Part shown: positions 28,405 to 38,350 of the stretch, piece by piece
Position numbering within the stretch: the stretch's first letter is position 1
Layout: the number at the start of each line of letters is the position of its first letter
Assembly (NCBI GenBank): GCA_027858735.1
Contig: JAQICC010000124.1
Location: 1-38,412 of the forward strand
Direction of reading: 5' to 3'
Source: Salinivirgaceae bacterium
GTDB lineage: Bacteria > Bacteroidota > Bacteroidia > Bacteroidales > SZUA-534
DNA: 38,412 bases
Program-made: the position numbers and the translations under genes
The notes under the pieces: model-generated
The model's database searches: none
The model's input: the letters and a program-made list of their open reading frames with translations, nothing else
Told to the model about the DNA's origin: nothing

Positions 28405-31400
28405 ATGATAAAAAAAATATTCACTTACCTAATTATTTTATTTGCTGCGCTAGGGTTGGCAAAACCACTTATGGCTCAAAACAATGTGCCGATATCGTGC
28501 TCACCCATACTTACACCACCTTACACCCTTAATTTAAGCGATTTTAGTGCCTTGGGCTCGCAAAAGCTTATGGTGTATTTGCATACCAACGATCTGGACA
28601 TTTCGAGGCTACCCGTAAAATTACAGCTTAAAATAGAATCGGTGGGCATAAGCATCGAGAATCAGCCAAGCATAGTAACCACCCCTATTTATTTAGATGG
28701 CGGTGCAACAAATGTATTGTACGGTAGCGATTTAGCTGACTATTTCAATATTAATAACCTCACCTTTCAAGGATATTCAAAAGATGCCTACCGTAGGGCG
28801 GGACAGTTGCCCGAGGGGTTTTACCGCTTTAGCATATCGGTAATACATTATTATACCCACAGGCTGGTTTCCAATACAGGTACCCTTAGTGCATGGATAG
28901 TGGTAGGTAAACCGCCAACATTAAAATTCCCCTTAAACGAAGATTATATTGGTGATAATGTAGGTATGCCTATAACCTTTTCCTGGTTGTCGAGTAATGC
29001 CGGTAGTCCTGCAGCAGTGGGTAGCATACAATACACCTTGCAGTTATGGGAAATGCGCATTGATAACATAAACCCTAATTTGGTGGTAGCAACCATTCCG
29101 GTGTTTTTTGAAGAAACCGTATTCAATACAGCCTATACCTTTTATACCAGCACCATGATCATGGAACCGGGCATGCGCTATGCATGGCGGGTAACAGCCA
29201 GCGATGCTGCCGGTTTGGTGCCTTTCGAACAAAAAGGGCAAAGTGAAGTGCGTACCTTTACTTATAAAGCATCGTGCGATTCGGTTAACAGCTTACAAAG
29301 TCAGGTCACTGGTCGCGGTGGTAAATTTACTTGGGATGGTATGCCCAACCATACCTCGTACAATGTGGAAATGAAAAATCCGAAAACAGGTTGGTTAAAG
29401 CAAAGCGAAACCTTTGAAAATAGCGCCAGCTTTTTTGGATTGGAATATGGATCGGTGTATGAAATGCGGGTGCAATCGGTGTGTAACTCCGATCCCACTT
29501 CGGTAAGTGACTTTAGCCATTGGCAACACCTTGAAATTTCGTTGCCCGAACCTGCTTACGATACCGCTAGCTGTCCGAATTGTGGTTGCGATGACAATAT
29601 GTCGGATCTTGATATCGAAAATTTCGAGATTCGCACCGATCTTATCGACGGCGATACCATACACAACAAACAGGGTACTACGCGTTTAATTATTAAAGAA
29701 ATTACTTCCAATAGTGGTGGAACCTACGAAGGAATATGTTATTTCTGGGCCGAAATTTGGGCTTTAAAAATACCTTGTAATTTTTCAAGTCTTCAGGTAA
29801 ATACCGAAAATGTAATTGTAAACCTTACTCTGGAAAGCATAAACGACCCCACCTTTTTAATTGATGTAGATGAGGTTATTGATGACATTGCTGATAATCT
29901 GGATATATTATTTGATGATTTACCTAACGATACCATTGAATACGACGGTGAAATTGAAACCGTTTATGTAAACGAAGAGGGTGAGGTAATTGCGGTTGAG
30001 GTAAATGAAGATGGCACCGTTACAGAACATAATATCGGTAAAGACGATGATCTTGAAAAAGTGGTAATTCAAGATAAAGAAGGAAATGAATATGTGGTGA
30101 CCAAAAAAGGCGACGTAATGGGCGCCAAAGAATATGTGGCCACCGAAGGCGGTAAGCGAAGCGATGTAGAAGATTATAATGAAGAGCTTGAAGAAAAGAC
30201 CAGCGAGACCCCAAGTGTGGTGTTTAGTGCCGAAGTCAATCAAAATTATGGTTTTGATGCTTATGTCGATATAAAAAGCAACATACAAGATCAATATCCT
30301 GTTTTAAAAGGAACTTACCGACCCGCCTATAAAAGTGTTGCCAGCTTTAAACCCGATGCCGTGAGCGTAAGCGGCAATAACAATAATACCTTGTTTAAAG
30401 ACGAAATGGGTATTAAGGCAGCTTTGCAGGGAAGCAAAATTACCTTTATTGGTGGCAGCAACGAGCAACAAAAAAGCTTATATGCTATTGATACCCTAAC
30501 CGATCCCGACCAGGTGATCGGGAAACTTAATGTGGTAAGCTATGCGGAACAAACCACTAAACTGGTTATGGTTTCGGTTAACGGGGCAACTTTACCAAAT
30601 GCCACTAGCCTAAGCACCGACCTTAATACCATTTACAAACAAAGTGTAGTACAATGGGAGGTTGTTGCAGGTAATGCCCTAACTAATATTGCCTTCGAAG
30701 GCGAAAAAATGAGCCATGGAGGCAGTGGCGTAACCTCGCCTTATAATGCCGACCAAAAAACCCTTATTAATGCTTATGATGAATCTATAGAAGGCGGCCT
30801 TGAAGACGATGCTTGCTACCTGTTTTTTATAAGCGAAGTAGTTGACAAAGATGCCAACATAGCAGGTTATATGCCCCTAAAATACAACTGTGGATTTATT
30901 TACGGCCTACCCAACAATACCACCATTGCCCACGAATTAGGCCACGGTACCTTTAACCTCTACCACACCTTTAGCAGCAAACTGAATATAGCTGCCGAAG
31001 GCAAAACTCAAAACCTGATGGATTATGCTGGTGGTAGTGAACTATGGCATTACCAATGGGACTTAATTCATGATCCGCAGAATATGCTGTTTGCTTGGAG
31101 TCAGGATGAGAGCGAGGCGGAGATGGCAATTTTAAACTCAAATCTTTCATTGGTATTTTATAATGATAGTGGTCTGGTGCATAACAAAACAATTTACTTT
31201 TTACCTGATTTAAACGAAAAAATCACATTAAAGGCAAAACAAACAAATGATAATATATTAGAAGATGTTAAGGTAAATTGGAGTTATAATAACCAAAAAG
31301 AAGTAACAGAAATAGCTTTAACTACTAATAGTGAATTATTTGGGGAGAAAGAAAAGATCCAAATTGATGTTACTGAAAATGTATTACTTGGAGCAGATTC

Positions 31401-31884
31401 AACACTTACATACTTTATTGGAAAAGTTAATGTATCACCTAACTATGTAATTGACAGTGTTCTTTCTAACATTAAGAATATACGAGAAGAATTTGATAGC
31501 CTTGCTTTAGTGGTGTCTGAAATTCAAATTGAAAATCTAGATGAAATTTCATTAAAGACAATATCAAAATACATTACACAAGATTTAAGCAAATATTACG
31601 ATTCGCCACCAAGTGAACTTTTAACAGAACTGGATAGGGTTTTGGCAAGGATGTATACTTTGGATTTACTTATTAAAGAACTGGAAAACTTTGATGACCT
31701 TGCAGTAGAAATCGCTTCCATTTATTCCCAAGAATCCAGCAAACAAGAGTTTTTTAATTCTGTGATTGAAAGCCTAGAAACCATTAACCCATTAGACACA
31801 AAGGAAAAACTGGGAACGCTGTATAAAGAACAAATTGCCAATACCACCTTTGAGAAATTAGCAGGGAGGTTAAATAATGAATAG
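28405..31884 (+). CDS. Fn3-like secreted protein with zinc metallopeptidase motif and variable C-terminal tip
   Basis: 1159 residues; signal peptide at 1-24 (IILFAALGLAKPLMAQ). Residues about 25-290 (LPEGFYRFSI, PGMRYAWRV) resemble the Bacteroidota TANFOR/Fn3-type N-terminal region; about 290-375 is an Fn3 domain. A CPNCGC cluster (C390, C393, C395) opens a further beta domain, followed by a very acidic linker (about 485-570). The catalytic candidate is H843-E844-L-G-H847 with H854, then NLMDY at 870-874 as a possible Met-turn, and a QWD-x-x-H-D-P segment. HELGH-x-F-N-L-x-H-T-F is a motif I recall from the pre-tip region of Bacteroidota polymorphic-toxin-like proteins. From about residue 909 the DNA falls from about 45 to 27 percent GC and the family resemblance ends: a helical tip of about 250 residues, unrecognised. 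The stop overlaps the amidase gene by 8 bases. Self-cleavage to release the tip is inferred, not shown. Confidence 0.85.
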   Translation: MIKKIFTYLIILFAALGLAKPLMAQNNVPISCSPILTPPYTLNLSDFSALGSQKLMVYLHTNDLDISRLPVKLQLKIESVGISIENQPSIVTTPIYLDGGATNVLYGSDLADYFNINNLTFQGYSKDAYRRAGQLPEGFYRFSISVIHYYTHRLVSNTGTLSAWIVVGKPPTLKFPLNEDYIGDNVGMPITFSWLSSNAGSPAAVGSIQYTLQLWEMRIDNINPNLVVATIPVFFEETVFNTAYTFYTSTMIMEPGMRYAWRVTASDAAGLVPFEQKGQSEVRTFTYKASCDSVNSLQSQVTGRGGKFTWDGMPNHTSYNVEMKNPKTGWLKQSETFENSASFFGLEYGSVYEMRVQSVCNSDPTSVSDFSHWQHLEISLPEPAYDTASCPNCGCDDNMSDLDIENFEIRTDLIDGDTIHNKQGTTRLIIKEITSNSGGTYEGICYFWAEIWALKIPCNFSSLQVNTENVIVNLTLESINDPTFLIDVDEVIDDIADNLDILFDDLPNDTIEYDGEIETVYVNEEGEVIAVEVNEDGTVTEHNIGKDDDLEKVVIQDKEGNEYVVTKKGDVMGAKEYVATEGGKRSDVEDYNEELEEKTSETPSVVFSAEVNQNYGFDAYVDIKSNIQDQYPVLKGTYRPAYKSVASFKPDAVSVSGNNNNTLFKDEMGIKAALQGSKITFIGGSNEQQKSLYAIDTLTDPDQVIGKLNVVSYAEQTTKLVMVSVNGATLPNATSLSTDLNTIYKQSVVQWEVVAGNALTNIAFEGEKMSHGGSGVTSPYNADQKTLINAYDESIEGGLEDDACYLFFISEVVDKDANIAGYMPLKYNCGFIYGLPNNTTIAHELGHGTFNLYHTFSSKLNIAAEGKTQNLMDYAGGSELWHYQWDLIHDPQNMLFAWSQDESEAEMAILNSNLSLVFYNDSGLVHNKTIYFLPDLNEKITLKAKQTNDNILEDVKVNWSYNNQKEVTEIALTTNSELFGEKEKIQIDVTENVLLGADSTLTYFIGKVNVSPNYVIDSVLSNIKNIREEFDSLALVVSEIQIENLDEISLKTISKYITQDLSKYYDSPPSELLTELDRVLARMYTLDLLIKELENFDDLAVEIASIYSQESSKQEFFNSVIESLETINPLDTKEKLGTLYKEQIANTTFEKLAGRLNNE
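31130..31884 (+). other. Compositionally foreign C-terminal tip of the metallopeptidase protein
   Basis: Sixty-base counts give about 52 percent GC at 30901-30960 and 43-45 percent at 31021-31140, then 22-28 percent at 31141-31380. The break falls just after the QDESEAEMA segment that ends the protease region. The encoded tip begins with a beta-rich 100 or so residues and ends with predicted helices (from VIDSVLSNIKNIREEF). It looks like a domain joined to a conserved carrier by recombination. The family is unknown. Confidence 0.6.
31864..31870 (+). promoter_or_regulatory. Strong Shine-Dalgarno inside the upstream gene
   Basis: GGGAGGT ends 6 bases before the ATG at 31877. It lies inside the last codons of the metallopeptidase gene and supports the 8-base overlapping start rather than the ATG at 31889. 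Such a strong site is uncommon in Bacteroidota and suggests that the amidase is translated at a high rate or by reinitiation. Confidence 0.6.
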
Positions 31885-33346
31885 AGCCATGAAATTATAT
31901 ATTACCATAGCAGCAATATTTCTTACTTGCACTTTAATAAATGCCCAGCAGATTGATGTACAGGTAGTTTACAACAACACAGCAGATATAAAGGCCAATA
32001 CTGAAACGATAAACAAGATAAAATCTGCCGTTAAAACATCAGAGTTGCAAGCGGCATTAAATAGCAATGGTCATATTACTGATAAAAACCTTATTATCAG
32101 GGTGACTTTTTTTGACCGGGGAGTTATTGGACAGCTAAAACTTAAAGCTGAACATGAACTTACACCGGAAGGATACATTGAAAAATGGCAGGAAACGGTT
32201 AAAAACAAGAGTGGTATATTATTTCTATTTATTAAAAATAAAGGTAAGAGTCAATATGACTTTAATAAGCTGTACGTTTCAGATCAATTAGAACTAGAAC
32301 ATTTATTTCCCCTGGTGGTTGAGTTTGTTAATGAGAATTTGAGTGGTGATTTTACTACCATAATAGGAAATGGAACGAAATATTTAGCAAAGGCAATGAC
32401 ACCGATATGGAATGTAGATGATGAGGGGGATGTTGGATTAAAGAAAGAAGTGGTTGATATAACCAATATTAGCAGCTACCCAGAGTTTCATAAGGGCTAT
32501 AGTAATAGTGTTTACAATTGTTATGATTTTGAACCATATCATTTCATTTGGCCTGATCATGAAGATTTAGGAGCAGAAAGAGATTATGATTACATTCATA
32601 AACTTAGCAGTTATACGAATTATAATGGTAGAGTTGATGATCAAATTCTCAAAATTGAGGAATGGGGATATCATGGAGACGTATTAGTCTCAGGTTGGCC
32701 GTGGAATGTAAATGGTGATTTAGAAAGTGTTAGCGAAGAGGGAGATTATCATGCTAAACTTTCAGAGCATTCAGAAAATGAATCTTCAGGAACAAGAGAT
32801 TTTGAAGAAGGTGAAAATTATTGCCGATTGAATATGATAAGTTCAACAACTCAAAAAGGTGAGCAATTATCAATTTATAAATATAAACAGATATGGGGTT
32901 ATCAGCCTACTTGGTGTAATCAGTTTGCAAATTATATTTCGCAGAATTTGCTATTTAATCATATTCCTTGGCAATCTTCTGGTTATAGGGCAAGCCAAAT
33001 ACATGATTATGTGAGTAACAGCAAACAGTTTAAAAAAGTCACGTTTGAGGAAGCGTGGGAATATACTAATGTCGGTTATGTGGTGTATTTCACATCCTAC
33101 CATTCGTCAGGGGTAAACTATAATTCGGATGGGACGGTTAATTATTGGAGCAGTAGTCCAGGCCATATAGCAACATGCTTTCCTACAGGTGGAGAATTTG
33201 AATTTTTAGAAGGATACCTTGTCCAAGCTGGAGGATTTGATAAAACTAGGCGCTTGATTTTTAAGGATGCTTGGAGTGCTAATTATGGTGTTGAAAGAGA
33301 AAAAGTATCTGCACACATTTATATGGGTTATTTAAAACTTGATTGA
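31877..33346 (+). CDS. Exported papain-like (NlpC/P60-type) amidase, candidate effector
   Basis: 489 residues with a signal peptide ending at INAQ (residue 24; hydrophobic core TIAAIFLTCTL). Residues about 25-175 look like a TPM-like alpha/beta domain (weak call). The C-terminal 160 residues carry the arrangement of NlpC/P60-superfamily peptidoglycan amidases: P-T-W-C347-N-x-F at the start of the catalytic helix, an intervening S-x-x-I-x-D-Y and V-x-F-E-E-A segment, and G-H430-I-A-T for the catalytic histidine. Such enzymes cut peptide bonds in the cell-wall stem peptide. The gene overlaps the metallopeptidase gene by 8 bases and has a strong ribosome site, so it belongs to the same unit; it is followed after 2 bases by the YARHG gene. 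With its own signal peptide it would first reach the cell's own periplasm, so a protector might be needed. A housekeeping wall hydrolase is the alternative. Confidence 0.8.
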   Translation: MNRAMKLYITIAAIFLTCTLINAQQIDVQVVYNNTADIKANTETINKIKSAVKTSELQAALNSNGHITDKNLIIRVTFFDRGVIGQLKLKAEHELTPEGYIEKWQETVKNKSGILFLFIKNKGKSQYDFNKLYVSDQLELEHLFPLVVEFVNENLSGDFTTIIGNGTKYLAKAMTPIWNVDDEGDVGLKKEVVDITNISSYPEFHKGYSNSVYNCYDFEPYHFIWPDHEDLGAERDYDYIHKLSSYTNYNGRVDDQILKIEEWGYHGDVLVSGWPWNVNGDLESVSEEGDYHAKLSEHSENESSGTRDFEEGENYCRLNMISSTTQKGEQLSIYKYKQIWGYQPTWCNQFANYISQNLLFNHIPWQSSGYRASQIHDYVSNSKQFKKVTFEEAWEYTNVGYVVYFTSYHSSGVNYNSDGTVNYWSSSPGHIATCFPTGGEFEFLEGYLVQAGGFDKTRRLIFKDAWSANYGVEREKVSAHIYMGYLKLD

Positions 33347-33348
33347 TT

Positions 33349-34575
33349 ATGAAAAAATTTGTTGTAGGGATTTTGGCATTAATAACTTTAGCGTCTAATG
33401 CTCAAACTAGATCTGATTGTATGCTTAGTGTAGCAGAATCTGATATTGAATTCTGTTCTGTGATTAATGGTGATACCATATTACAAAAGAAAGTTGACAA
33501 AGCCTTAAGAAGGAAAAAAGCGGACAACAAAACTAGCTATATCTTTTTTAATGGGGAGCCTATTGATTCTACGGGGATTCGATTCTCTTCTTATCCATTT
33601 TTGATTGGTAAAGAAATTTGTTTTTATCATGGGAAGCAAGATGAAATATATGGGTACATACCAGAGGAAAGGTTGGAAGTTAAAAGTGGTGATATGCAGA
33701 ATTTGAATTATCATAGAAACTTTATAACTACTAGAGTTGATGATAAAATATTTTTGGTTAATTCTTCTTTTAGTGAATATGTGGAAGAAATGGATGTTAA
33801 AGAGTTTGTAAATAAAGAGGTAACGCTTGGAGGGGATTATGAATCTCTTGCGTCTTATTACAAACTTTGTGATATTGAATATGCCTTGATAAAAGCGACA
33901 TGTAATATTAGTTGTTGGGATTATGAGGTTTACATATACAATCTTGCCAATAAAGAATACAAAAGGATTGATTGGATTAGTAAAGGCGAAGGAGTTCCTG
34001 GTGTTAAGTTTGGTATAGTTTTGAGTAATCGAGAAAGCACCTATTGTTTGGCATATATTGTAAATAGCAATGATAGTAACAAAAACGGGGAATGGCTTTT
34101 AGATGACCAACTCAATCCCATAAGTAAAACGTTATCAAAACATCAAATCAGGTTTGACGGTTATAATGGTAATTTAAATAAGGATTATAACTTTCCAAAA
34201 GTAGCGGGCGTAAATTACAAGCAAGATCAGATAGACTTCTATTATTTATCAGTAGTCCTTGATAATAAGGATGTGGTTTTTGTACCTTATGACTTGAATG
34301 TGAGTCTTGAATTATTGCTTTATAATGCATATCATAACAGGATTTTAACCAAAGAAGATTTAAAGGGCTTTGGAGAATATGAATTCGGTATAATTCGAAA
34401 CCTTATATTTGCCAAATACAATTATGATTTTACCTCGGAATTTTATCAGGCATATTTTAACCTGTTTGCATTTTATAATGCTCCTGAAATGCGAAAATCA
34501 AGAACTAAAGATGTAAATAGTAAACTAACTGAGGCAGATAAAGCCAATTTGGAATTAATAAAGAGTATGGAATAA
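33349..34575 (+). CDS. Exported YARHG-domain protein, candidate immunity or partner of the amidase
   Basis: 408 residues from the ATG at 33349; a TTG at 33343 would add two residues, but the ATG gives a normal signal peptide (MKKFVVGILALITLASNAQ) and sits 2 bases after the amidase stop. The C-terminal 75 residues match the YARHG domain: I-I-R-N-L-I-F-A-K-Y-N-Y-x-F, then Y-F-x-x-F-x-F-Y, and the usual end L-T-E-A-D-K-A-N-L-E-L-I-K. This extracellular domain occurs in Gram-negative and Gram-positive proteins thought to work at the cell wall. The remaining 300 residues are beta-rich and unrecognised. As the last gene of the operon, directly behind a wall-cutting enzyme and also exported, it fits an immunity or regulatory partner, but this is inference from position. 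AT-rich like the amidase gene. Confidence 0.8.
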   Translation: MKKFVVGILALITLASNAQTRSDCMLSVAESDIEFCSVINGDTILQKKVDKALRRKKADNKTSYIFFNGEPIDSTGIRFSSYPFLIGKEICFYHGKQDEIYGYIPEERLEVKSGDMQNLNYHRNFITTRVDDKIFLVNSSFSEYVEEMDVKEFVNKEVTLGGDYESLASYYKLCDIEYALIKATCNISCWDYEVYIYNLANKEYKRIDWISKGEGVPGVKFGIVLSNRESTYCLAYIVNSNDSNKNGEWLLDDQLNPISKTLSKHQIRFDGYNGNLNKDYNFPKVAGVNYKQDQIDFYYLSVVLDNKDVVFVPYDLNVSLELLLYNAYHNRILTKEDLKGFGEYEFGIIRNLIFAKYNYDFTSEFYQAYFNLFAFYNAPEMRKSRTKDVNSKLTEADKANLELIKSME

Positions 34576-34615: not shown

Positions 34616-34951
34616 TTACAATGCAAAAGCTTTTCTGCCTCTTGATTCTCTAATGAAAGTATCAATCACATCAAACAGGGTTCTTTTTTTATCGTCGTCC
34701 AATAGTTCAATTTCTTCGATGCGCTTAAGCGTGTTTTTATCAAACTTGCTGTTCATGCCTTCGCCTACAAGGTAATCAAGTGAAACTTCCAGAGCATCTG
34801 CAATCCTTTTGGCTACTTCAATAGATGGAATGGCATCACCACGCTCGTATTTGCCTACCATAACTTGCGAAATACCAGTTTGCTTGGCTAAATCACCTTG
34901 CGACAGGTTTTTAGATTTTCTTAAATCAGCTATAATTTTACCTACTTCCAT
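34616..34951 (-). CDS. XRE-family helix-turn-helix repressor
   Basis: 111 residues, read leftward and convergent with the YARHG gene. Residues about 4-60 form the five-helix XRE DNA-binding fold with the classic L-S-Q-G-D-L-A-K-Q-T-G-I-S-Q-x-x-V-G-K-Y-E-R-G recognition part and I-P-S-I-E-V-A-K-R-I-A-D-A-L. A short helical tail (about 70-105) probably serves dimerisation. It faces the broken primase gene across 156 bases that contain a good rightward promoter and three direct GATAGTTTT repeats. It is therefore the likely switch of the mobile element, comparable to phage or conjugative-element repressors. Confidence 0.9.
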   Translation of the reverse strand: MEVGKIIADLRKSKNLSQGDLAKQTGISQVMVGKYERGDAIPSIEVAKRIADALEVSLDYLVGEGMNSKFDKNTLKRIEEIELLDDDKKRTLFDVIDTFIRESRGRKAFAL

Positions 34952-35107: not shown

Positions 35108-36679
35108 ATGCAAATCCCCGACATTAAAAAGAACTTGCCAATAACAACTGTTTTGGCACATTACGGAATTAAAATTGATAAGAACAGTCACATAAAATGT
35201 CCTTTTCATAAAGATGAAAAGCCAAGCTGTAAAATATACCTGGATACCAATACATACAACTGCTTTGGCTGTGGCAAAACTGGAGACCAAATACAATTTA
35301 TACAAGACAAAGAGAATTGCAGCAAACACCAAGCTTTGAAAAAGGCAACGGAGTTAATAGGAACTAAAGAAACAAACAATACAGATGCAATGGGGATTGC
35401 AGCAAAGCGGGGCAGCGTAAAGGAGGTGGATTTTGCAAAGCTTTTTAGCAAGCAAAAAGAAAGCCTCCCGCGCAGCCCTAAAGCTTTGGAATACCTTAAA
35501 AGCCGTGGCTTATCCCAAGATTTAGAAATAGGCTACAATAGTGGCATTGCTTGGAAGAAGCTCAAACAATGTGTTGTTTTTCCACTAAAAGACAAAAGTG
35601 GCAACATAGTAAGCATGTATGGTCGGCGAGTTGAAGAAAGCGCAGGGCATAAACTGGAATATGGCACGCATTTTTATAGCGAAAACAGAAAAGGACTTTA
35701 CCCAGCTTACCCACCACAAGAAACAGAAACCTTAATAATTACCGAGGCTATTGTTGATGCTGCAAGTTTGTTGCAAATCGAAGAACTAAATCAATTTACA
35801 ATCCTATCAGCTTACGGATCCAACGGCTTAACAACAGAACACAAAGCAGCCATAAAGGAATGGGCTTCGAGCGGAGTCGAGAAGCAGGAAATTATTTTCT
35901 TTTTTGATGGCGATACAGCTGGTCGTGATGGGGCAAGCAAATACGCTGAGGAATTAAAAGAGCTTTTACCAAACGGGTTACTGAGCGTAGTCGAAGTACC
36001 CGATGGTGAAGACGTAAACAGTTTGTTTGTAAATTATGGAAAGGAAGCCATTTTGCAATTGGTAAGCGAAAGGCAACCAAGCGGCTCAGAAACACCCAAA
36101 CTTAACTCCCCTGCAACCTTTGAACCTTGCCACCCTGAAACCTTATCTCCATTAAACACAGAACAAGCGAACAAGATTATTTATGAAACCCAAACCGCTC
36201 GCTACATCGTTAAAGGCAGCTTACCCAAAACCTTTGATAAAATGGTAATTAGTCTAGATGTGCAAGATTTAGAAACCGCTACAAAATATCGTTGCCGACT
36301 GGATTTGTACGAAGAAAAGCAAACCCGGAAAGAAGCCAGGCAAGCAAGCGAGAAACTAGAGCTTAGAAGCGATTTAGTAGAAAATGACCTTTCACAATTA
36401 ACTGACCTTTTGGAAGAATACCGAGATAACCAACTGCAACAAACCACCGAAGAAGCCAACAACGATAAAGCGTTAAGCTTTGCAGAACAAGCCAAATGCA
36501 AAGAGTTTTTAAGTTCTAGTGATTTAGTTACCAAGCTAAACGAATTGGTTGGTAAAGCGGGCATTGTAGGCGAAGAAAATAACCGTCTGTTTTTATTTGT
36601 CATTGCCACCAGTCATAAAATGCCTGACACTTTGCATGCTTTAATACAAGGTAGTAGCGGAAGTGGAAAAACACATTAA
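35108..36679 (+). CDS. N-terminal part: CHC2 zinc-finger and Toprim primase, ending at Walker A
   Basis: 523 residues are translated as one frame. Residues 31-55 are the zinc finger (C31-x2-H34, C52-x2-C55) of DnaG-type primases. The Toprim catalytic core has the glutamate in I-I-T-E-A-I-V-D-A (about residue 213), the F-F-D-G-D-T-A-G-R-D-G aspartates (about 266) and P-D-G-E-D-V-N-S-L-F. A charged helical linker follows (about 370-480), then the P-loop G-S-S-G-S-G-K-T at 515-522, where the frame stops. A truncated product could still be a primase but would lack the motor. The ATG at 35108 has no clear ribosome site, as usual here. Confidence 0.8.
   Translation: MQIPDIKKNLPITTVLAHYGIKIDKNSHIKCPFHKDEKPSCKIYLDTNTYNCFGCGKTGDQIQFIQDKENCSKHQALKKATELIGTKETNNTDAMGIAAKRGSVKEVDFAKLFSKQKESLPRSPKALEYLKSRGLSQDLEIGYNSGIAWKKLKQCVVFPLKDKSGNIVSMYGRRVEESAGHKLEYGTHFYSENRKGLYPAYPPQETETLIITEAIVDAASLLQIEELNQFTILSAYGSNGLTTEHKAAIKEWASSGVEKQEIIFFFDGDTAGRDGASKYAEELKELLPNGLLSVVEVPDGEDVNSLFVNYGKEAILQLVSERQPSGSETPKLNSPATFEPCHPETLSPLNTEQANKIIYETQTARYIVKGSLPKTFDKMVISLDVQDLETATKYRCRLDLYEEKQTRKEARQASEKLELRSDLVENDLSQLTDLLEEYRDNQLQQTTEEANNDKALSFAEQAKCKEFLSSSDLVTKLNELVGKAGIVGEENNRLFLFVIATSHKMPDTLHALIQGSSGSGKTH
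35864..35885 (+). repeat. Intragenic GAGCGGAGTCGA palindromic repeat
   Basis: The core GAGCGGAGTCGA with flanking GCTTC on the left and GAAGC on the right forms an imperfect palindrome inside the Toprim coding region. I recall this sort of sequence as a dispersed repeat in Bacteroidota genomes. It encodes part of W-A-S-S-G-V-E-K-Q. Confidence 0.45.
35980..35997 (+). repeat. Second intragenic repeat, GAGCGTAGTCGA core
   Basis: ACTGAGCGTAGTCGAAGT shares the core GAGCGKAGTCGA with the copy at 35864 and lies 116 bases from it in the same orientation and reading frame class. It encodes part of G-L-L-S-V-V-E-V. Confidence 0.45.
36677..36679 (+). other. In-frame TAA within the ATPase domain
   Basis: The codons around it read ACA CAT TAA CTT AGC AGA CTA. 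A single T-to-A change from TTA (leucine) would explain it, because related proteins as I recall them continue the P-loop with hydrophobic residues here. The downstream reading frame is unchanged and open for 711 bases. Confidence 0.7.
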
Positions 36680-37390
36680 CTTAGCAGACTAGCCGCTTTA
36701 ATCCCCAGTGAAAGAGACGTACAGTTTACCAGAGTTACCGAAAATAGCTTTTACAATTACGATGAATATTATTTTAGAGGAAAGCTGGTTTGCTTAGAAG
36801 ATATTGACGGCTTAAAAGAAGAAGCACTGTTTGCTTGGCGTGAGCTCATAAGCAATAACCAGTTAAGTAGCTCTACCAGTCAGAAAGATGAAAACGGAAA
36901 TATAAGAAGTGCACAGCGTATTGTCCGCGGACCAATGGCAAGTATTTGCGCTACAACCCACGGTCAAATTTATGAGGACAATATGAGTCGTATGTTTATT
37001 GTTGCCGTTGATGAAAGCTTGGAGCAAACCCAAAATATTATAGCGTACCAAAGCAAAGCAGCCAGCGGAATAGCAGAGAAAGAACAAGAAAACGAAGCAA
37101 AAGAATTTCTGCAGAACTGCATTAGAATGCTGAAACCACAAAAGGTAATTAATCCATACGCCGACAAAATAAAACTACCACTGCAAGCCCATAAAATACG
37201 ACGATTGCACGAGCTGTTTTTAAGCTTCGTAAAGCAAGTAACACTCATTAACCAGTACAATCGAAATAAAGACCAGCAGGGCAGACTTATTACTGAACCT
37301 GAGGATCTAAAAATTGCAGTAGAAATCATGTTCGATAGTATTTTTCTGAAGGTTGATGAATTAGACGGCAGCTTGCGCCAGTTTTTTTGA
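36680..37390 (+). pseudogene. Central ATPase fragment after the stop codon
   Basis: Open in the primase frame for 237 codons without a start of its own; the first ATG is at 36935. It encodes the rest of the AAA-like motor: L-V-C-L-E-D-I-D-G as Walker B, the segment A-S-I-C-A-T-T-H as a sensor-like strand, and N-M-S-R-M-F as a possible arginine finger. From about 37180 it also contains the helical region shared with the gene at 37784. It ends at TGA 37388-37390, created by the T7 run. Confidence 0.6.
37382..37390 (+). other. T7 run causing a frame change
   Basis: The reading is CAG TTT TTT TGA; with six T's it would be CAG TTT TTT GAA AGC, which continues the protein. A P-site tRNA on TTT could re-pair on the next TTT, and TGA in the A-site is a slow stop, so +1 recoding as in prfB is formally possible. 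A homopolymer sequencing error is also possible. Confidence 0.6.
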
Positions 37391-37394
37391 AAGC

Positions 37395-37649
37395 TTGAAA
37401 GAATACGTTTTAGAGAAAGAAAATCCACAGAACTATGAGTTTACCCAAAGAGAAATTAGGCAAGCATTAAACCTTAGTAAAACCAGTCTTTTCAGGTATT
37501 TAAACAACCTAATTGAATTGGAATATATATCGTCAAGTGGTGGTTATTATAACAAGGGATTAAAGTATAAGATTAGCTATTGGGATAATATTACAAAACT
37601 TCGCAGTGAAATACAGCAATATCTTTTAAATCAACTAGATAAGCTATAA
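37395..37649 (+). CDS. C-terminal winged-helix fragment of the primase/ATPase
   Basis: 84 codons, open but with no ATG start; the true coding frame enters from 37389 (GAA AGC TTG). It encodes a winged helix-turn-helix: F-T-Q-R-E-I-R-Q-A-L-N-L-S-K-T-S-L-F-R-Y-L-N-N-L as helices 2-3, and S-S-G-G-Y-Y-N-K-G as the wing. Probably not made as a separate protein. The same domain occurs in the 188-residue protein encoded at 37784. Confidence 0.5.
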   Translation: MKEYVLEKENPQNYEFTQREIRQALNLSKTSLFRYLNNLIELEYISSSGGYYNKGLKYKISYWDNITKLRSEIQQYLLNQLDKL

Positions 37650-37667
37650 ATTAAATTTAACAATATT

Positions 37668-37752
37668 CTAGCGTTCCACCCCCTTGGAACGCTAGATGGA
37701 ACGCTAGAATCCATGCTGCGACTGATAATACCCCCTAGCGTTCCGCGTTCCA
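37668..37752. repeat. Cluster of GCGTTCC repeats, candidate iterons or operator
   Basis: CTAGCGTTCCA (37668-37678) and TGGAACGCTAG (37685-37695) form a perfect 11-bp stem around CCCCCT. A second TGGAACGCTAG is at 37697-37707, a forward CTAGCGTTCC at 37735-37744, and an overlapping-series GCGTTCCA at 37745-37752. Five copies fall in 85 bases of non-coding DNA between the primase fragment and the small winged-helix gene. This suits a replication-initiator binding region or an operator for the adjacent protein. Confidence 0.65.
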
Positions 37753-37783
37753 CAAAAGTGTTAAGGGGGAAAATAAAAAATCA

Positions 37784-38350
37784 ATGAACAGTCGTTACCA
37801 AAAAATCACATCGTTAGTTATTGCTTTAAAAAACATTTATCCCAATGCTACTACGGTTCATGATCCAACACAGCAGATAGAAAGCGACAGTTTTTTACAA
37901 AATGATGTACGAATACTTTTTGAATCACTAACCCACTCACTAACCATCATAAATAAGCTTTACAGGCAAAAGGACAAAGACGGTAACTACATTAGTCAAA
38001 GAGAAGATTATGCCACGGCTTTAATGTTAATCAGTCCTTTGTTTGCTTCTAAAACCCTTGATGTATCACAAAATGTTAGAAATTATTATCAAATCTTAGT
38101 TGATGAAATAGGCTTTTCTATTTCTTTCAATTGGAAAGATTTTCAAATTTTAATTGGTAAATCAAAAACCAGTTGTAACCGAATATTGCACAACCTCCAG
38201 GAATTAAATTTAGTGCGAAGAGTTGGAAAAGGTTACCGAAGTCTTTACCAGTATGAGTTAATACCACAAACTGAAGCTCAGGAAACTACCGAAATTTGGG
38301 AATCAGCTTTTGAAGATTGGAATGAATTTAAAGGTTTTGAGGAATTTTGA
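37784..38350 (+). CDS. Small winged-helix protein related to the primase C-terminus
   Basis: 188 residues, ATG start, intact. Residues about 40-160 align by eye with the C-terminal 150 residues of the broken primase/ATPase: L-x-x-S-L/F-x-x-x-x-T-x-I-N-x-x-x-R-x-K-D-x-x-G in both, then a helical spacer, then a winged helix with the recognition part S-K-T-S-x-x-R-x-L-x-N-L and a Y-R/N-x-x-x-Y strand. It has no ATPase or primase domain. It therefore looks like a stand-alone copy of the DNA-binding module. It starts 31 bases after the GCGTTCC cluster, which may be its target. A role in replication initiation or control of the element is inferred. Confidence 0.7.
   Translation: MNSRYQKITSLVIALKNIYPNATTVHDPTQQIESDSFLQNDVRILFESLTHSLTIINKLYRQKDKDGNYISQREDYATALMLISPLFASKTLDVSQNVRNYYQILVDEIGFSISFNWKDFQILIGKSKTSCNRILHNLQELNLVRRVGKGYRSLYQYELIPQTEAQETTEIWESAFEDWNEFKGFEEF

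Follow-up and report, generated by a model that had tools for sequence, protein, structure and literature searches.

The window analysed here, the whole of a 38,412-nucleotide contig from a Salinivirgaceae bacterium (JAQICC010000124.1, contig C116 of an assembly of 452 contigs, GCA_027858735.1), carries a cluster of short repeats in a 134-base gap between two reading frames (37650-37783, no strand assigned), directly 3' of a broken primase-helicase gene. This array probably serves a small integrating element as an iteron-type origin of replication, and its reader would be the winged helix that the primase-helicase itself carries at its C-terminal end. The repeats recur in related elements at the same position and with the same geometry, and their letters are statistically linked to the predicted recognition helix of the primase-helicase. 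An earlier note, made from the letters of the window, had proposed an iteron-like array in a mobile element, acting as an origin or as an autoregulatory site; recurrence and the helix link support this, an origin being the likelier of the two roles.

Five copies of the word GCGTTCC lie in the gap, three on the + strand (37671, 37738 and 37745) and two on the - strand (37686 and 37698); the rest of the window has only two (26672 and 31813). This count bears out the five-copy, two-orientation cluster in a non-coding gap described by the earlier note. The units span 7 to 12 bases. Repeat 1 (TCTAGCGTTCCA, 37667-37678, + strand) is the left arm of a perfect inverted repeat, the right arm of which is repeat 2 (37685-37696, - strand, read on the + strand as TGGAACGCTAGA); repeat 3 (TGGAACGCTAGA, 37697-37708, - strand) is a direct copy of repeat 2, offset by 12 bases. 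A spacer (37709-37734, no strand) separates this group from repeat 4 (CTAGCGTTCC, 37735-37744, + strand) and the abutting, shortened repeat 5 (GCGTTCCAC, 37745-37753, + strand). The inverted repeat had been described as perfect over 11 bp; it is perfect but longer: 12 bp on either side of a 6-bp spacer, or 14 bp if copy 1 is set against copy 3.

That such repeats arose by chance in decaying DNA is the least credible explanation considered. It would fit the broken state of the adjoining gene and the failure to find a second copy of the array in the same genome. Against it stand the shuffle tests of the gap and the recurrence across the family. In the genome the word is uncommon: CTAGCGTTCC occurs at 6 places, 4 of them in the array, and its reversed control word at 5. 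Among dinucleotide shuffles of the gap, any 7-mer reached at least five copies, counted over both strands, in 16 of 5000 and any 10-mer at least four copies in 5 of 5000; the repeat score of the 140 bases past the primase stop was matched by none of 100 shuffles. The GCGTTCC repeats are thus confirmed as real and non-random. A hairpin or transcription terminator behind the primase gene would be in keeping with the fold of the gap as RNA (z -4.0, equalled by 0 of 200 shuffles) and with one terminator-like match on the - strand (37696-37667) where 0.3 were expected. However, none was called on the + strand, Rfam returned no match, and the direct copies, the distant copy and the link to the recognition helix are left unexplained, so that this account of the array is extremely unlikely; a hairpin or terminator is possible as a side role.

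The family was assembled by a primase scan of genome contigs (the genome_contigs collection), which yielded 36 loci. The array comparison used 25 of them; in the other eleven (L028, L030, L032, L045, L048, L050-L053, L060 and L063) the gap is cut off or masked, or the gene is broken or rearranged. Family-wide, repeats sit between the primase stop and either int1 or a solo winged-helix gene. Their letters differ from one relative to another (GGCGACCC, CGAACACTAA, TGGACGCTAG, GTGGATAAT, AGTATAACA, AGTAGCTCA, AGTGGTTCA and more), and for most relatives a mechanical search arrived at the word already assigned to that relative. The same search describes a common geometry: direct copies about 10-12 bases apart, one inverted copy, and a further copy past a spacer, with a start distance of 38-60 bases between the inverted and the far copy in the 22 measurable elements. 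The iteron-like character proposed by the earlier note therefore finds its support in recurrence at the equivalent position; related gaps have in common where the repeats lie and how they are arranged, but not the GCGTTCC letters. A shuffle test at a threshold of at most 1 in 100 was passed by 19 of 40 post-primase stretches of 140 bases, as compared to 0/40 helicase-coding, 0/37 int1-coding and 2/32 downstream controls: by this measure the array is strong in about half of the family and weak or absent in the rest. Site matches number 121 in 6,828 bases of gaps and 53 in 198,678 bases outside (38 elements), a contrast that is partly built in, as the sites were defined from the gaps. Iteron origins of the type known from Staphylococcus aureus pathogenicity islands (SaPIs) hold an A+T-rich stretch between iteron groups. 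Here, the A+T content of the spacer exceeds that of the element in 18 of 22 measured cases (mean 0.673 versus 0.601), but not in the window. To note, in Flavobacterium-type members (L056, L057, L058, L062 and L123) the repeats appear to extend into the primase coding sequence at its 3' end.

The gene upstream of the array (35108-37649, + strand) is interrupted by a stop at 36677-36679 and by a frame change near 37388-37390. Its pieces nevertheless make up one protein: 35108-36679 encodes a CHC2 finger and a Toprim domain, an ATPase stretch follows, and 37395-37649 encodes a winged helix. The flanking proteins had been said to share a DNA-binding domain; a winged-helix region is indeed common to both, but the 84-residue upstream frame is the tail of the broken primase-helicase. 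The breaks may be due to sequencing error. In the search output, in-frame stops are frequent in the family's primase-helicase genes (the window gene, G155, G163, G197 and G244); decay, gene splitting and errors of sequencing may all account for them. Contig C266 carries a paralogue that is 86% identical over the first 523 amino acids, shares the recognition-helix letters SKTSLFRYL with the window, and has a frame open up to the contig end, which falls short of where its own array would begin.

The fold was taken from the relative L033, whose AlphaFold2 model (mean predicted local distance difference test score, pLDDT, 78.9) places a C-terminal DNA-binding domain in this Rep-like helicase: a winged helix with helices 815-822 and 826-838 and wing strands 842-848 and 852-857. 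Helix 826-838 is the predicted recognition helix, to which the window codons 37476-37514 (+ strand, SKTSLFRYL...) align. Foldseek and VIA-align 2 match the front part of the model with DnaG and the ATPase part with MCM helicases (for example 6mii_B, Z 19.7, root-mean-square deviation 3.3, 269 residues aligned), the nearest solved folds of the helicase part among those listed; these likenesses are structural matches and no demonstration of function. Solved relatives found by sequence cover the primase half only. A Toprim primase, a helicase and a winged helix are combined in a single chain. Residues 480-787 of L033 are predicted to join an MCM-like AAA+ fold to a DnaG-type primase in a bacterial element. 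Initiators of the phage P4 alpha type possess a superfamily 3 (SF3) helicase, and a Pfam scan of 20 members of the present family returned no SF3-named family.

Similar repeats pair with similar recognition helices across the family: elements with GACCC-type repeats, for instance, have SK...QR[YH] in the helix, and those with GGATAA-type repeats have NP[SN]N.KYY. Two tandem elements with different repeats in one genome (L094) are only 55.9% identical over the C-terminal 110 amino acids of the primase-helicase, as compared to 87.6% over its remainder and 86.4% for the recombinase Int1. L097 has the repeats and the helix of the first L094 element, while its Int1 is nearer that of the second (85.0 versus 78.7%). 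Mutual information between sites and protein columns was scanned in 32 representatives and 468 columns, with permutations within the two main site classes; a duplicate (L096b), two loci with no called site (L092 and L093) and two sequences that are too short (L091 and the window fragment) were left out. Residue 831 (L033 numbering), which lies within the predicted recognition helix, tops all 468 columns (z 7.25, 0 of 300 permutations). It is still first at 0/300 once the three first-seen elements are removed, and in the set of elements shared with Int1 the top three columns are residues 831, 828 and 830. Judged from these sequence comparisons, the C-terminal winged helix of the primase-helicase is the likeliest reader of the array. 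The earlier note had proposed binding assays with the 188-residue protein encoded downstream; the primase-helicase domain is the likelier binder.

Several results weigh against the origin reading or against the link on which it draws. The permutations ignore ancestry. When sites are called mechanically (22 representatives), column 839 comes first (13/300), just past the recognition helix, with residue 830 second (25/300) and residue 831 fifth (85/300). One Int1 column reaches 2/300 with all elements. Mantel distance tests find that sites track the whole helicase at least as well as the helix, and sliding-window correlations within site classes score Int1 windows like the helix; neither kind of test is decisive, and neither is used as support. 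In the repeat test 21 of 40 gaps miss the 1/100 threshold, and L092 and L093 have no clear site. The spacer of the window is not A+T-rich, and its initiator gene is broken. Finally, the overlapping contig ends seen in L034 and L044 could also derive from tandem arrays.

An autoregulatory operator, on which the primase winged helix or the 188-residue protein would control the 188-residue gene, int1 and int2 with no origin function, is the main rival. The covariation tells which domain probably reads the site and not for what purpose, and the array lies immediately upstream of the next genes; moreover, the short Rep form of plasmid pIGRK is described as a negative regulator (PMC6854812). The size of the array, its direct copies about one helical turn apart and its far copy past a spacer are nevertheless better suited to an origin, and the protein presumed to bind it has a helicase and a primase domain. 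As a sole function, the operator is unlikely; autoregulation may hold alongside an origin role. The 188-residue winged-helix protein itself (37784-38350, + strand) matches the primase-helicase end over residues 43-152 (E 5.7e-4 against C266) and would be a possible regulator; its AlphaFold2 model is too poor for use (mean pLDDT 47.8). A scan for sigma-70-type promoters found none. Solo winged-helix genes also lie right behind the array in L023 (1376-1921), L047 (4478-5071) and L122 (minus strand), and the window gene, behind which the contig ends, has the same placement and may be of this solo type.

A primase match at E at most 1e-60 was found in 12 of 395 Bacteroidota genomes, and a second query in a similar sample of 395 gave 11. 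The usual order of the elements is a tip gene, a small immunity-like gene, an XRE repressor gene on the opposite strand, the primase-helicase gene, the gap with the array, and two tyrosine recombinase genes. In two complete plasmids they form tandem units, of 8169 bases in Aureibacter and 7652 bases in Aureispira. Each tandem starts from a full RHS gene, continues with the units and is followed by a shorter RHS/toxin gene with a different end; the units overlap within conserved RHS core words, 8 bases in Aureibacter (TATGGATT) and 6 in Aureispira (TACGAG). The mobility proposed by the earlier note is supported by these tandem units and displaced toxin tips. At L066 (13826-22002) and L067 (9582-17239), tandem cassettes are seen at the RHS toxin core motif, with a new tip gained and the old one shifted downstream. 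More tandem copies occur in L042, L092, L093, L094, L096 and L097. The adjacent cassettes of L042 (2262-6687 and 10299-14725) have backbones that are 99.9% identical and different tip and immunity genes. For two short contigs, L059 and L061, the titles state a high assembly coverage (498 and 250), so that these may be multicopy.

The same data bear on whether the array is a recombination site, holding core or arm sites for the tyrosine recombinases of the element. The 12-6-12 layout of the inverted repeat resembles a dif-like core. This spacing, the two recombinase genes that come next in most relatives, and the Int1 column at 2/300 in the full set favor such a role. However, Int1 is not significant in the follow-up checks (best columns at 42/300 and 36/300; Int2, 42/300), and both tandem-array junctions lie in the toxin core gene rather than in the repeats. 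Arrays are kept in L023, L047 and L122, all of which lack int genes: tblastn and custom profiles found no recombinase there, while the L033 positive control was detected. L023 and L122 are short contigs, yet they extend from the array to a downstream RHS-type stretch. Furthermore, the window and C266 have one type of attachment word in common with L033, the repeats of which are different; the repeat letters therefore do not follow the integration site. A recombination site is thus very unlikely.

In the window, the left end of the element would lie at the word ATGGCATTACCAATGGGA (31044-31061, + strand), inside a gene encoding 1159 amino acids (28405-31884); the word has a counterpart near the start of C266, and a similar word is found in L033. 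Behind it come two cargo genes for proteins of 489 and 410 amino acids (31877-34575, + strand), likely toxin- and immunity-related as judged by their position only, and an XRE/RstR-type repressor gene (34616-34951, - strand). SaPIs are phage satellites whose induction and packaging depend on a helper. For the present elements no home in a phage or satellite was found: two scans of the viral_contigs collection with two primases gave 4 and 19 pattern-matching stretches, none confirmed as a relative, and none of the 34 records matched in the phages collection covered at least 80% of the query.

The plan of the putative origin has counterparts in several systems. According to PMC7581432, SaPI origins lie directly downstream of rep and are built of iterons, with the C-terminal domain of Rep as their reader. 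The present array is alike in having several short repeats immediately 3' of a Rep-like helicase gene, whereas the helicase of the window family forms one protein with a DnaG-type primase, is MCM-like by predicted fold, and travels with toxin tips and a recombinase pair, with no tie to phages found. In the staphylococcal cassette chromosome mec (SCCmec), the same source places a putative origin between cch2 and ccrC; there too the intergenic region bears repeats and separates a recombinase gene from the gene for a replication helicase, but SCCmec has its primase as a protein apart and ccrC for its recombinase, where the window family has toxin cargo and tyrosine recombinases. The alpha protein of phage P4 unites a Toprim primase, a helicase and an origin-repeat-binding winged helix in one protein (PMC4234260); the window family differs in its CHC2 finger and in a helicase whose predicted fold is nearest MCM. 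The crenarchaeal plasmid pRN1 has a primase-helicase-winged-helix protein and an origin just 3' of its gene, with a stem-loop in place of iterons and another primase type (PMC4234260). As these systems share the layout, the origin plan is already known; MCM-like helicases have also been noted in bacterial integrative plasmids (PMC5862659). Polymorphic toxins swap tips by recombination with standalone cassettes and have XerC/D genes beside polyimmunity loci, as described in passages of PMC3482391 that mention no replicating, integrating cassette with insertion at a core motif. The literature searched held no description of the element family, which is not proof of absence. What is new here is the carrier element, the DnaG/MCM-like combination and the helix-site link.

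We infer the following course of binding, unwinding, priming and excision, with regulation by the 188-residue protein as a further possible layer. The element would excise as a circle by means of recombinases that it encodes itself or that a sister copy supplies. The primase-helicase would then bind, through its C-terminal winged helix, the repeats just 3' of its own gene; its MCM-like AAA+ part would assemble on the array and open the DNA, and its DnaG-type primase part would start synthesis. Copying of the circle would thus precede reintegration, often into a tandem position. As its primase gene is broken, the window copy would need help in order to replicate, which the C266 paralogue, for example, could give.

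A wider reading joins these elements into one picture. It is tentative, and we give it, as a whole, somewhat less than an even chance. The array would serve as origin to cassettes of an undescribed class, which copy themselves and insert into RHS/zincin-type polymorphic toxin genes at a conserved motif; the host toxin would gain a new tip and immunity gene, the old tip being pushed downstream. Origin and initiator specificity would shift together through a few recognition-helix residues, and a single toxin gene could therefore house several cassettes in tandem, free of cross-talk. Those copies that lost their recombinases and keep the solo winged-helix protein would depend on other members or interfere with them.

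Staphylococcal islands provide known cases of iteron origins 3' of a self-loading helicase. A DnaG/MCM-like initiator in Bacteroidota cassettes would provide a concrete and testable route for tip exchange among polymorphic toxins, and the family offers natural variants for learning how a single winged helix reads its repeats.
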